Position numbers and translations under genes: made by a program
Part shown: piece after piece, positions 8,400-16,354 of the stretch
Layout: each line of letters starts with the position of its first letter
Numbering within the stretch: the stretch's first letter is position 1
Origin: Cupriavidus neocaledonicus
Lineage (GTDB): Bacteria > Pseudomonadota > Gammaproteobacteria > Burkholderiales > Burkholderiaceae
Reading direction: 5' to 3'
Assembly: GCF_000372525.1 (NCBI RefSeq)
Contig: NZ_AQUR01000107.1
Coordinates: 384,548-448,547 of the forward strand
Length of the DNA stretch: 64,000 bases
The notes under the pieces: model-generated
What the model was told of the DNA's origin: nothing
The model's database searches: none
Seen by the model: only the letters and a program-made list of their open reading frames with translations

Positions 8400-8415
8400 T
8401 CGTCGGAAGCGACGA
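8400..8415. promoter_or_regulatory. acyl-CoA regulon palindrome, copy A
   Basis: TCGTCGGAAGCGACGA: 6-bp inverted arms around GAAG. It lies in the 144-bp gap between the thioesterase stop and the thiolase start. Identical 16-bp copies occur at 9983 and 16259, with close variants at 16339 and 50878. All are in gaps next to acyl-CoA metabolism genes. Confidence 0.65.
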
Positions 8416-8429
8416 AGTTGCCGCACCGC

Positions 8430-8909
8430 TCAGGCGCGCGGCGCCAGCACCGCGAAGATCGCCGTGGCGCGCAGCAGGCAACGCTCGCCGCTGACCAGCC
8501 GGCAGGTGCCGTAGCGCAGTCGCGAGCCGAGCTTGTCGAACTCCACGCGGGCTTCGACCCAGTCGCCCGGGCGCGCCGAATCGAGATAGTCGAGGCTCAG
8601 GTTCACCGTCACCGCGCTTTTGGCGCGGCCGGTCTCCAGCGACATCATCATGCCGATGGCGGTATCGGCCAGCGTCGCCAGCATGCCGCCGTGCGGGATG
8701 CCCAGGTTGTTCAGGTGACTTTCGTCGATGCGCACCGCCAGCGTGCGGCGGGCCGCGTGCAGATAGAGCTGGCCGAAGCCGGCCATGTAGCCGCTCATCC
8801 GGCGCAGCGGGATAAAGCCCTCCGGCACGTCGGCGCCGGCTTCGGCCGGCGCGGCGATGGCGCGGGTCAGCGCCGCCTCGATTTCCGCCTCGGCCATGGC
8901 GTCAGGCAA
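8430..8909 (-). CDS. PaaI-type hotdog-fold acyl-CoA thioesterase
   Basis: A 159-residue single hotdog domain with the family motif [14 protein letters not shown] (residues about 70-84) carrying the catalytic acidic residue in the central helix. It likely hydrolyses acyl-CoA esters to free CoA during overflow or catabolism. Its start overlaps the stop of the upstream flavoprotein gene by 8 bp, so the two are translationally coupled. Confidence 0.85.
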
Positions 8910-9873
8910 AGTAGCGCGAGGCCACGCTGAGGTGTTCGCGGCAATCGGCCACCATGCGCGCGATCAGTTCTTCGCAGCTGGGCACGTCGTCGATCAGGCC
9001 CACGCACTGGCCGGCGCTGATGATGCCGCCGTCGGTCTCGCCCGCCTTGAGCGCGGCCTTGCCGCGCACGCCGGCGACCAGGTGCTTGACGTCCTCGAAC
9101 TGCGCGCCGCCGGGACGGCGTTCGATGCTGACCACTTCATCCGACACGGCGTTCTTGAGCACGCGCGCGGTGTTGTGCAGGGTGCGGAAGATCAGGTTGG
9201 TGTCGCGCTCGCTTGCCTGCACCAGCGCCTGCTTGACGTTGTCGTGAATCGGCGCCTCGCGCGTGGCGCAGAAGCGCGTGCCCATGTTGACGCCCTCGGC
9301 ACCCAGCACCAGCGCCGCCGCCATGCCGCGCCCGTCGGCGATGCCGCCCGAGGCGATCACCGGGACCGACAGCTTGCGCACCGCCTGCGGGATCAGCACC
9401 ATGCCGGGCACATCGTCCTCGCCCGGATGGCCGGCGCACTCGAAGCCGTCGATCGAGACCGCGTCCACGCCCAGCCGCTCGGCGGACAGCGCGTGGCGCA
9501 CCGCCACGCACTTGTGGATCACCTTGATGCCCGCGGCCTTGGCCCGCGCGATATGTTCCCTGGGATTGTTGCCGGCGGTCTCCAGCACCTTGACGCCGCT
9601 CTCGATGATGACGTCGAGGTAGCGCGCGTACGGCGGCGGGTTGATCGACGGCAGCAGGGTCAGGTTCACGCCGAACGGCTTGTCGGTCATCTGGCGGCAG
9701 CGGCGGATTTCGGCGGCCAGGTCCTCGGGCGTGGGCTGGGTCAGCGCCGTCAGGATGCCCAGGCCGCCCGCATTGGAAACGGCGGAGGCCATTTCGGCGT
9801 AGCCAACCCATTGCATGCCGCCCTGGATGATCGGGTAGCGGATGCCAAGTAGTTCGGTGATGCGTGTCTTCAT
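8902..9873 (-). CDS. nitronate monooxygenase-like NAD(P)H/FMN flavoprotein
   Basis: A 323-residue TIM-barrel flavoprotein of the nitronate monooxygenase/2-nitropropane dioxygenase superfamily. It opens with [17 protein letters not shown], has the FMN-binding [12 protein letters not shown] and [13 protein letters not shown], and the conserved histidine stretch [14 protein letters not shown]. Relatives in beta-oxidation clusters are often annotated as enoyl reductases or quinone reductases, so true nitronate activity is not certain. The AAGGA site supports the ATG. It is the first gene of the leftward run with thioesterase and thiolase, and its upstream gap carries the 16-bp palindrome at 9983. 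Confidence 0.85.
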
Positions 9874-9982
9874 GGTGGTCCTTTTGCTGTCTGCGCAGGC
9901 AGGGCAACGGGCGCAATGTCACAATGTGCCGGCCCTGCCGCCTGATCGGCATCAGTCTACGGTGCCGCGCGCCGTCACAGCC

Positions 9983-9998
9983 TCGTCGGAAGCGACGA
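9983..9998. promoter_or_regulatory. acyl-CoA regulon palindrome, copy B
   Basis: TCGTCGGAAGCGACGA, identical to the copies at 8400 and 16259. It sits in the divergent gap between the flavoprotein gene (start 9873, minus) and the enoyl-CoA hydratase gene (start 10115, plus), about 110 bp from each, so it could control both. Confidence 0.7.
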
Positions 9999-10114
9999 TT
10001 GCGGGCGGCGCAATCTGCACTAGTGTTGGGCGAGCCCCCGCCCCCGCTGCCGGCGCTTGTTTCGCTTGCCCCGGCACCTCCGGCATCCCTTCCTACCCCC
10101 CAGCAGGAGCCCGC

Positions 10115-14462: not shown

Positions 14463-14612
14463 TGGCTGTCAGTGGTCTCCCGCACATCGCGGCCCTGGCC
14501 GGGCGCGCCATGCGCCCCCGGCGCTGCAGGATGCAGGCGGGTGGCCGTGGCTGTGGTGTAGCGAGGCATTATGACGTAAACCGCTGCGCTGGCGAAAACG
14601 CGGGCAGCGGCC

Positions 14613-14633
14613 AGGCACCGCTTGCCGGTGCCT
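14613..14633 (-). terminator. hairpin at the end of the acyl-CoA synthetase gene
   Basis: AGGCACCG (14613-14620) and CGGTGCCT (14626-14633) pair with a 5-base loop right at the stop codon of the leftward synthetase gene. A short T run occurs further downstream on the minus strand. Probable transcription stop before the MalT-like gene. Confidence 0.45.
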
Positions 14634-16180
14634 CACACCAGCTTGCTGGCGTGCCCGGCCCAGTAGCGGTCGCGCAGCAGCCGCTTGAGCAGCTTGCCGG
14701 TGGGCAGGCGCGGCAGCTCGGGCTCGAAGTCGACCGAACGCGGGCACTTGATCGCCGACAAATTGGCGCGGCAGAACGCGATCAGCTCGGCCGCCAGTTC
14801 GGGCCCCGCGTGGCCCATGTCGGCGGGCTGGACCACGGCCTTGACCTCTTCGCCGAAGTCCTCGTTGGGCACGCCGATCACGGCGACATCCATCACCTTC
14901 GGATGCGTCATCAGCAGGTTCTCGGCCTCTTGCGGGTAGATGTTGACGCCGCCGGAGATGATCATGTTGGCCTTGCGGTCGGTCAGGTACAGATAGCCGT
15001 CCGCGTCCACGTAGCCGACATCGCCGATGGTGCTCCAGTCCGGATGCTGCGGATGGCGCGTCTCCGCGGTCTTGGCCTCGTCGTTGTGGTACGTGAACGG
15101 GCGCCCCTCGGCAAAGTAGATCGTGCCCGGCTCGCCCGGCGGCAGCAGCGCGCCGTCCGGCCCGCAGATGCGCAGCTTGCCGACCATGGCGCGCCCGACC
15201 GTGCCCTTGCGTTCCAGCCATTGCGGCGTGTCGACCACGGTCACGCCGTTGCCTTCGGTGCCGGCGTAATACTCCCAGATCACCGGCCCCCACCACGCGA
15301 TCATGGCTTCCTTCACCTGCACCGGGCACGGCGCGGCCGCGTGGATCGCCACGCGCAGCGACGACACGTCACAGGCCTGCCGCTGTGCCTCTGGCAGCTT
15401 GAGCATGCGCGAAAACATGGTCGGCACCAGTTGCGTATGCGTGATGCGGTGTTGCTGCACCAGCTGCAGGAACTGCTCGGCATCGAAATGCTCCATCACC
15501 ACCGCGGTGCCGCCCAGCGCCTGCACCGACATGTTGTAGCGCAGCGGCGCCGCGTGGTACAGCGGCGCGGGCGACAGGTAGCGCGTGTCGGCATCGAAGC
15601 CGTAGAGCCGCTGGCACAGCGCGGTCAGCGTCGTCGGTGCGTCGATGTCCGGGCTCGACGGCGGCGCGTACACGCCCTTGGGCCGGCCGGTGGTGCCCGA
15701 TGAATACAGCATGTCGCCGCCGGTCACCTCGTCGGCGATGCGCGTGGCCGCGCAGGCGGCCAGCGCGGTCTCGCAGGCGTCATAGCCCGGCACCGTGCCA
15801 TCCAGCATCAGCCGCGCCTGCAGCGCCGGCGTCTGCCCGCTCAGCGCCGCGGCGATCTCCGCCTGCGCGTGCGTGGTCACCAGCACGCGCGCGCCGCTGT
15901 CATTGACGATATACGCCGCGTCGGCCGCGTTCAGGCGCGTGCTCAGGCAGATATAGACGATGCCGCTGCGCTGCGCGCCCCAGCACAGCTCGAACAGCCG
16001 CGGATGGTTCTCCACCAGGAAGGCCACGCGGTCGCCGGGCCGCAGGCCGAGCTTGCGGAACAGGTGCGCCACCTGGTTCGAGCGCTGGTCCAGCTCGCGG
16101 TAGGTGACGACGGCGCCGCTGCCGCCCATGATGACGGCGGGCTTGTCGGGCGTGCGCTGCGCGTGGATGTGCGGATGCAT
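14633..16180 (-). CDS. acyl-CoA synthetase (AMP-dependent, ANL superfamily)
   Basis: A 515-residue adenylate-forming enzyme that makes acyl-CoA from a carboxylic acid, ATP and CoA. Motifs in order: the P-loop DMLYSSGTTGRPKGV (about 170-185), YAGTEGNGVTV (about 310), DRKANMIISGGVNIYPQEAE (about 400-420) and the C-terminal catalytic lysine in LPTGKLLKR. The start at 16180 (MHPHIHAQRTPDKPAV) has GAGGAG upstream; the frame is open to 16288 but has no better start. It is divergent from the two acyl-CoA dehydrogenase genes, with two palindromes between, suggesting joint induction. Substrate unknown. Confidence 0.9.
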   Translation of the reverse strand: MHPHIHAQRTPDKPAVIMGGSGAVVTYRELDQRSNQVAHLFRKLGLRPGDRVAFLVENHPRLFELCWGAQRSGIVYICLSTRLNAADAAYIVNDSGARVLVTTHAQAEIAAALSGQTPALQARLMLDGTVPGYDACETALAACAATRIADEVTGGDMLYSSGTTGRPKGVYAPPSSPDIDAPTTLTALCQRLYGFDADTRYLSPAPLYHAAPLRYNMSVQALGGTAVVMEHFDAEQFLQLVQQHRITHTQLVPTMFSRMLKLPEAQRQACDVSSLRVAIHAAAPCPVQVKEAMIAWWGPVIWEYYAGTEGNGVTVVDTPQWLERKGTVGRAMVGKLRICGPDGALLPPGEPGTIYFAEGRPFTYHNDEAKTAETRHPQHPDWSTIGDVGYVDADGYLYLTDRKANMIISGGVNIYPQEAENLLMTHPKVMDVAVIGVPNEDFGEEVKAVVQPADMGHAGPELAAELIAFCRANLSAIKCPRSVDFEPELPRLPTGKLLKRLLRDRYWAGHASKLV

Positions 16181-16258
16181 GGCGTGGAGCTCCTCGACTG
16201 GGATGGTGGGTGGGCGGATGCCGATCCCGCATTCTCGGAACCCTGGCCGGTTCGACCA

Positions 16259-16274
16259 TCGTCGGAAGCGACGA
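16259..16274. promoter_or_regulatory. acyl-CoA regulon palindrome, copy C
   Basis: TCGTCGGAAGCGACGA, identical to the copies at 8400 and 9983. It lies 79 bp upstream of the synthetase start at 16180, in the divergent gap with the acyl-CoA dehydrogenase operon. Confidence 0.7.
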
Positions 16275-16338
16275 AGCGGCACGGCCACGTTTTGCCGCAG
16301 CGCCGCAAAGGAAGCCGCGTCTGGCCTGCGCCTCAGCT

Positions 16339-16354
16339 TCGTCCGATGCGACGA
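16339..16354. promoter_or_regulatory. acyl-CoA regulon palindrome, copy D (variant)
   Basis: TCGTCCGATGCGACGA differs from the consensus at two positions. It lies 80 bp downstream of copy C and about 87 bp before the GTG start of the first acyl-CoA dehydrogenase gene, so each divergent promoter seems to have its own copy. Confidence 0.55.

Follow-up and report, generated by a model that had tools for sequence, protein, structure and literature searches.

AlkS of Pseudomonas putida GPo1, the regulator of alkane degradation, is characterised in excerpts of two papers as a LuxR/MalT activator that acts from an inverted repeat upstream of -35 and takes part in a feedback loop (PMC8784404, PMC12740625). 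A similar arrangement is met with in a stretch of 64,000 nucleotides from Cupriavidus neocaledonicus (contig NZ_AQUR01000107.1, positions 384,548 to 448,547 of the forward strand; the whole of it is hereafter called the window), where a palindromic 16-mer, TCGTCGGAAGCGACGA, forms an inverted repeat at about -50 to -35 of six promoters and where a gene for a large MalT/LuxR-type regulator is located in their midst. As with AlkS at the promoters PalkB and PalkS2, a large regulator of this type would be paired with an inverted-repeat operator just upstream of -35, and as with AlkS the catabolism of a hydrophobic substrate may be combined with feedback of the regulator, a likeness drawn from the descriptions in these excerpts. 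However, the AlkS operator is described there as a 20-bp inverted repeat, in contrast to the 16 bp found here, and the targets of AlkS are alkane hydroxylase genes, whereas those considered here form a beta-oxidation set; no alkane hydroxylase was found among the window genes by general family scans, the rest of the genome not having been searched.

With MalT of E. coli the regulator of the window shares an ATP-binding N-terminus, a tetratricopeptide repeat (TPR) region and a GerE helix-turn-helix (HTH) domain, but it scores 332.6 bits and thus does not reach the MalT equivalog cut-off of 537. Also, its presumed targets bear an inverted repeat and are not maltose genes, whereas MalT, according to passages of one paper, binds two decanucleotides in direct repeat (PMC6099782). 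As with the sites of the NarL/GerE class, the length of 16 bp, the palindromic form and the A/T centre suit a dimer of GerE domains, but in contrast to NarL the regulator has no receiver domain, and the half-site differs. With respect to fatty-acid metabolism, the TetR protein FadP is given in an excerpt as the predicted fatty-acid regulator of beta-proteobacteria (PMC5343134). The regulons of FadP, PsrA, FadR, LiuR and LiuQ resemble the one proposed here in that acyl-CoA or fatty-acid catabolism is controlled; these proteins belong, however, to the TetR, GntR or MerR families and not to the MalT/LuxR type. Their motifs are presumably unrelated to the 16-mer.

Based on the comparisons given below, the 16-mer is very probably the dyad operator of the MalT/LuxR-type activator encoded at 11706-14462, one of the large ATP-binding (LAL) regulators, which would switch on the beta-oxidation set. 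This assignment is carried by the sites, by their fixed spacing to a -10 element, by their conservation, and by their co-occurrence with the regulator and with one type of recognition helix, all of them properties of the sequence. An annotation of positions 8400 to 16354 made from the letters alone (the sequence-only reading) had listed three exact copies of the 16-mer and one copy with two mismatches. A mismatch scan of the window recovers all four, the exact ones at 8400, 9983 and 16259 on the plus strand, but the list turns out to be incomplete, as a copy with one mismatch at 50878 had been missed. The candidate operator copies, to which no strand is assigned, are the following:

8400..8415, no strand: operator copy 1, exact, thiolase promoter (mismatch scan and promoter alignment)
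9983..9998, no strand: operator copy 2, exact, common to two divergent promoters (mismatch scan and promoter alignment)
16259..16274, no strand: operator copy 3, exact (mismatch scan and promoter alignment)
16339..16354, no strand: operator copy 4, two mismatches, TCGTCCGATGCGACGA (mismatch scan and promoter alignment)
50878..50893, no strand: operator copy 5, one mismatch, TCGTCTGAAGCGACGA, outside the part covered by the sequence-only reading (window and genome scan)

At three mismatches or fewer the window holds six matches to the 16-mer, including a three-mismatch match at 20558 on the minus strand, as opposed to a mean of 0.97 and a maximum of 3 in 100 dinucleotide shuffles. The whole genome of 6.77 Mb has three exact copies and one copy with a single mismatch, and all four are inside the window, within 43 kb; 16339 is among the 24 places with two mismatches genome-wide, the remainder of which are scattered. 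The statement that the copies occupy promoter gaps beside acyl-CoA genes extends to all five sites, each being located 5' of a gene (site 16259 overlaps the longest GTG form of the synthetase open reading frame (ORF), an ATG start being available at 16180). Between them, the five sites face six promoters, namely those of a thiolase, a PA1024-like flavoprotein, an enoyl-CoA hydratase, an acyl-CoA synthetase, an acyl-CoA dehydrogenase and a short-chain dehydrogenase/reductase (SDR), and their consensus is TCGTCgsWWscGACGA.

The two arms alone behave differently. The pattern TCGTC-N6-GACGA, with which a scan of the genome had been proposed, occurs at 47 places, five of them in the window, compared to 54 places for a reversed-pattern control, and as there is no enrichment genome-wide such a scan would mislead and does not predict regulon members outside the regulator loci. 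The objection that the motif might be a dispersed repeat found equally within genes therefore applies to the arms but not to the 16-mer. Specificity lies in the full, nearly symmetric 16-mer together with its spacing to the -10 element, and not in the two arms alone.

As for this spacing, a hexamer of the form xAxxxT starts 22±1 nt past the site in the direction of the gene in all 153 distinct ortholog promoters from 34 loci of the genus (29 thiolase, 30 NMO, 30 hydratase, 33 synthetase and 31 dehydrogenase promoters; since the sequences are akin, their effective number is lower), whereas at offsets 2-69, except 22 and its neighbours 21, 23 and 24, the mean of xAxxxT over the promoter classes does not exceed 0.30. 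For the SDR promoter, GAATCT is found at 22 in 16 of the 17 stretches of further relatives that have the site, and GAAATT in the remaining one. The centre of the site is W-W in 153/153 ortholog sequences; the arms were fixed by the search pattern, and their conservation in this table consequently carries no weight. In the window the -10-like hexamers are:

8372..8377, minus strand: AACAAT, 22 nt from operator 1, toward the thiolase (promoter alignment)
9954..9959, minus strand: TAGACT, 23 nt from operator 2, toward the NMO-family gene (promoter alignment)
10021..10026, plus strand: TAGTGT, 22 nt from operator 2, toward the enoyl-CoA hydratase (promoter alignment)
16231..16236, minus strand: GAGAAT, 22 nt from operator 3, toward the acyl-CoA synthetase (promoter alignment)
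16378..16383, plus strand: GAAGAT, 23 nt from operator 4, toward the acyl-CoA dehydrogenase (promoter alignment)
50850..50855, minus strand: GAATCT, 22 nt from operator 5, toward the SDR (relatives' stretches)

The divergent flavoprotein and hydratase promoters have a single common site with a -10 on either side. With the hexamer assigned to -12 to -7, the site extends from about -50 to about -35 and has its centre at -42.5, which is the position expected of LuxR-type activator sites, and this centring would fit an activator better than a repressor. At none of the five sites was a sigma-70-like promoter complete with a -35 hexamer detected, and thus the promoters look activator-dependent.

The protein proposed to act at these sites, for which the sequence-only reading had given no regulator, is encoded between the hydratase and synthetase promoters:

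11706..14462, minus strand: MalT/LuxR-type regulator, 918 aa, proposed cognate regulator (domains, structure match, co-occurrence, helix)

Its ATP-binding N-terminus has the P-loop APAGFGKTT (Walker A), which is invariant in the ortholog alignment, and a MalT-like TPR region (PF17874, E 6.4e-31) as well as a C-terminal GerE/LuxR HTH (PF00196, E 3.4e-17) are present, so that it has the domain make-up of a LAL regulator. The MalT structure 8bob aligns over residues 22-444 (E 2.8e-38). The promoter geometry fits activation by a regulator of the LAL type, with a putative dependence on ATP and on an inducer. Relatives of the protein at E 1e-30 or better are found in 51 of 60 genomes of the genus. 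The gene appears to have a separate, basal promoter of its own:

14568..14573 (element 14568-14595), minus strand: -10 CATAAT of the regulator gene within GTTTACGYCATAAT, without operator (conserved in relatives)

The GTTTACGYCATAAT element is kept 5' of the regulator gene in 32 of 33 Cupriavidus stretches, again with no operator there, and the promoter scan picked it up as well.

Within the genus, the 16-mer was sought at up to one mismatch anywhere in the 60 genomes, and the counts were set against a search for the regulator (numbers with G and L are our handles for genomes and loci). At least three sites are present in 34/34 genomes with a regulator ortholog, the fragments in G042 and G045 being counted among these, as opposed to 1/26 without. 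Ortholog-bearing genomes have 3 to 8 sites (mean 5.09), the other 26 have a mean of 0.58, and the means of the reversed-pattern control are 0.53 and 0.88, respectively. In the sole ortholog-less genome with three sites (G017), a 47% homolog adjoins one of them. The conservation in related species for which the sequence-only reading had called is thus found, the sites being located at the same promoters in 34 loci of the genus, of which 27 have all five promoter classes of the main cluster within the stretch that was fetched, two have four and five have two; maps of 40 fetched loci also place the sites in the same gaps. The lone miss in a covered gap is the thiolase gap of L069, where a two-mismatch site falls outside the pattern. 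In a scan of the genus for arms plus -10, hits outnumbered those of the reversed control in the majority of genomes, ortholog-less ones among them (18 vs 2 in G026), and given this, many genic-looking hits and one genome (G037) with inflated controls, the pattern was rejected as a predictor.

In other genera, homologs at 43-51% identity are often ringed by TCGTC-N6-GACGA sites. Of 80 named loci 69 were covered, and those of homologs with at least 41% identity have 110 such sites in 950 kb, compared to 1, 3 and 0 for three scrambled-arm palindromes; they include five Cupriavidus orthologs with 20 sites. In 100 of the 110, xAxxxT is found at 21-23 nt in at least one direction, while about 14% are estimated to have it by chance. 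Loci below 41% identity have 13 sites, 8 of them with a -10, in contrast to 0, 3 and 0 for the scrambled controls. The sites go along with one type of recognition helix: a promoter-like site is present in 48 of 58 loci whose regulator has R-T-R at 890/891/894, but in only 3 of 51 loci with other combinations (the table covers 111 loci, among them the full set of 75 from L172 to L246; two that lack the helix residues are not counted, and a few entries duplicate a genome, i.e., L165/L195, L162/L223 and L105/L208). We take R890, T891 and R894 to align with the helix contact positions of NarL. L230 from Pseudomonas (32% identity), one of the three R-T-R loci below 41% identity with a site, has the exact 16-mer. 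Outside the genus, a family-wide scan found the exact 16-mer in 5 of 11 genomes with a strong homolog (E 1e-170) and in 9 of 248 others, and in four of these nine (G160, G216, G226, G275) the flanks are near-identical and look genic. A stricter pattern was largely negative outside the genus, returning mostly recurrent, probably coding sequences, with the exception of G281 near a homolog. In L105-L117, where homologs of ~37-41% have other helices, a replacement palindrome at the same spacing was sought, but nothing convincing was found except in L107.

A number of observations weigh against the assignment of the 16-mer to the MalT/LuxR-type activator. The synthetase is present in the same 34/34 genomes of the genus as the regulator ortholog; the regulator comes and goes as a block with the synthetase and the sites, and therefore it cannot be told apart from the rest of the cluster by co-occurrence within the genus. 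A TetR gene near the thiolase is likewise always present with the cluster (34/34), and as the genomes are related the counts are not independent. In other genera the loci were selected by the regulator, ten of the 58 R-T-R loci have no promoter-like site while three of the 51 others have one, and the helix contrast shrinks to 3/5 vs 3/48 (p 0.008) below 41% identity and to just 2/4 vs 2/23 (p 0.09) at 35-41% identity; the link between helix and site is partly confounded with overall relatedness. Of the four site-like promoters in L087-L090, one belongs to a genome that has no ortholog. The known sites of MalT, as noted from passages above, are direct repeats and not a palindrome (PMC6099782). 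Finally, the regulator's own promoter has no operator in the window, although in several homolog loci of other genomes a site is found just 5' of the regulator gene itself.

The TetR gene just mentioned (5390-6130, plus strand, 1 kb from the thiolase gene) could encode a FadP- or PsrA-like repressor, and the 16-mer might then be the operator of this protein, or of the LysR or IclR proteins encoded farther out, with acyl-CoA releasing repression. The gene is on the thiolase side of the cluster in all seven genomes with added flank, it accompanies every cluster of the genus, and for Ralstonia and Burkholderia an excerpt predicts that fatty-acid degradation is under the control of FadP, a member of the same family (PMC5343134). 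However, TetR homologs are found in 53 of the 60 genomes, i.e., also where the MalT/LuxR cluster is missing (19/26, at 51-71% identity), and 18 of these 19 genomes have fewer than three sites; at a similar divergence (65-72%) they occur both with and without sites, and the operators thus do not follow the TetR gene. Moreover, among 94 loci other than those of the window's cluster, of which 59 have sites, neither a TetR (E 1e-5) nor an IclR homolog was found, and LysR gave weak matches in three, these loci having been chosen by the MalT/LuxR protein. As the fixed centring at about -42.5 without a -35 hexamer also suits an activator better than a TetR-type repressor, another owner of the site is very unlikely.

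A repressor or dual switch in place of a class II activator, with the MalT/LuxR-type protein still the owner of the site, is improbable in view of promoters that have no -35 hexamer and look activator-dependent, and of a site position that is the one expected of LuxR-type activators. A LAL protein has been reported as a negative regulator, according to an excerpt (PMC9628970), and a dimer that occupies -50 to -35 might equally keep the polymerase away, but AlkS, in the passages cited at the outset, activates from an inverted repeat located upstream of -35 (PMC8784404, PMC12740625). As RNA, the exact 16-mer could fold into a six-pair hairpin of -7.9 kcal/mol; yet the variants retain the outer DNA dyad while the RNA stem is shortened, nothing resembling a terminator was matched at the sites, two divergent promoters depend on a single site, and being upstream of the -10 the sites are not expected in the transcript. 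With all four close copies of the genome confined to 43 kb, a dispersed repeat has as little in its favour, and a terminator, an mRNA structure or a repeat without regulatory role is hence extremely improbable.

For the preferred reading, i.e., activation by the MalT/LuxR-type protein, the following scheme may be proposed. A dimer of the C-terminal LuxR/GerE HTH would bind the palindrome centred at about -42.5 and recruit sigma-70 RNA polymerase to the six promoters, which have a -10 but no recognisable -35 hexamer. These would drive two acyl-CoA synthetases, two acyl-CoA dehydrogenases, the enoyl-CoA hydratase and the SDR 3-hydroxyacyl-CoA dehydrogenase, as well as the thiolase, a thioesterase and the PA1024-type flavoprotein. 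The regulator would be supplied at a basal level from the operator-less promoter GTTTACGYCATAAT, and since its gene lies 3' of the synthetase gene on the same strand, its level might be raised by read-through from the activated synthetase promoter, giving a positive loop like that of AlkS; the inducer would probably be the pathway substrate or its acyl-CoA. Binding, activation, ATP dependence and operon read-through are what we infer for this scheme.

Beyond the genus, there is a reasonable likelihood that MalT/LuxR-type activators of beta-, gamma- and some alpha-proteobacteria form a so far undescribed and widespread family that uses one operator (TCGTC-N6-GACGA with an A/T centre, 22±1 nt from the -10) and one helix code (Arg-Thr-Arg at 890/891/894), each member running a dedicated acyl-CoA pathway. 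With the assignment of the 16-mer, an orphan class of large ATP-dependent regulators would gain an operator, a regulon, a promoter geometry and a recognition code, which would allow acyl-CoA pathways to be predicted under the regulator's relatives and might offer inducible promoters for Cupriavidus, a genus with industrial use. In the PubMed Central literature, as judged by titles, the starts of abstracts and passages, no description of the motif or the regulon was found, and no relevant title on a MalT/LuxR regulator of beta-oxidation; the exact letters of the 16-mer gave no match in either orientation, while the 12-letter inner core matches three rice papers, by their titles. The system is new as a member of the AlkS-like activators, which are a known kind.

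According to Pfam, NCBIfam and PDB comparisons, the genes around the operators are a beta-oxidation set:

7110..8285, minus strand: 3-ketoacyl-CoA thiolase (Pfam and NCBIfam)
8430..8909, minus strand: hotdog-fold acyl-CoA thioesterase (Pfam and NCBIfam)
8902..9873, minus strand: NMO-family flavoprotein, nearest solved structure PA1024 (NADH:quinone oxidoreductase) (Pfam, PDB comparison)
10115..10990, plus strand: enoyl-CoA hydratase (Pfam and NCBIfam)
10959..11696, plus strand: nitroreductase-family protein (Pfam)
14633..16180, minus strand: acyl-CoA synthetase, FadD4-like, with the regulator gene 3' on the same strand (Pfam and NCBIfam)
16441..17592, plus strand: acyl-CoA dehydrogenase, PimD-like (Pfam and NCBIfam)
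17634..18869, plus strand: second acyl-CoA dehydrogenase, start set at the first in-frame ATG (C-terminal part of ORF 16767-18869)
48302..49885, minus strand: second acyl-CoA synthetase, 3' of the SDR gene (family profile comparison)
49965..50747, minus strand: SDR, 3-hydroxyacyl-CoA dehydrogenase type II-like (family profile and PDB comparison)

The SDR and second synthetase genes are ~32 kb away from the main cluster. Among PDB entries the flavoprotein is matched best by PA1024, an NADH:quinone oxidoreductase as stated in a passage of PMC10033279; for the thiolase, FadA5 was just one of many thiolases matched, and a steroid-pathway reading was therefore dropped.

In the window and the other loci, the first gene past the site codes for an acyl-CoA enzyme or an SDR in 73 of 107 promoters, compared to 42 of 110 genes drawn at random from these loci (Fisher p 1.2e-5), from which it follows that the loci are rich in such genes anyway; the control genes may be operon mates of targets, and four of the 107 first genes are MalT/LuxR regulators. 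Both figures add up the counts for ECH, dehydrogenase, CoA-transferase III, AMP-binding, thiolase and SDR, on the assumption that no protein has a double class, and rest on 25 of 48 families listed for the targets and 25 of 101 for the controls. There were 117 promoter-gene pairs, in addition to 30 sites without usable promoter or ORF, the near-duplicates L179, L204, L205, L195 and L223 having been left out. The 107 pairs used exclude six from L059, an ortholog of the window cluster, and also L182:1-294, L194:16346, L233:6262 and L235:1-516, which were truncated, doubtful or not of the group, and a wrong ORF (window:9140-9922) was replaced by the flavoprotein. Together with the promoter conservation in the 34 genus loci, these first genes support the view of the sequence-only reading that the palindrome marks an acyl-CoA regulon.

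Variants of the site and further copies were also noted. In L066 there are two exact copies of a variant operator, TCGTCAAAACTGACGA (TCGTCA-N4-TGACGA), at L066:8689 and L066:13251, each 22 nt from TAGACT and adjoining a 45% regulator homolog, at the same place as in the Cupriavidus necator N-1 plasmid NC_015727. An altered specificity is possible, and the presence of the variant beside this homolog suggests that the recognition code is evolving. The sequence TCGTCGGATGCGACGA stands 23 nt from TAGCAT in four genomes (L087-L090), 5' of an SDR in L087-L089; one of these genomes (G015) has no regulator ortholog, and a paralog may hence use the site. Some genomes (e.g., G016, G014, G039) do have paralogs with the same R-T-R code, between which cross-talk is conceivable. 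Two genomes have the exact 16-mer at a place not linked to the cluster (L073:5117 and L076:4789), with GATACT at 23 nt, 5' of an acyl-CoA synthetase-like gene; this gene may belong to the regulon without being linked to it, or may be the target of a paralog. In another genus (g11), many genomes share a recurrent TCGTCGGAATCGACGAACGTCACTTCGAC-like sequence that looks coding and mimics the arms, and by which pattern scans are easily misled.

A second LuxR-type protein, in which only a GerE domain is recognised, is encoded in the window at 53462-54784 (plus strand), and in the relatives L074, L075 and L078-L085 it is likewise kept close to the SDR/synthetase operon and the 50878 site.

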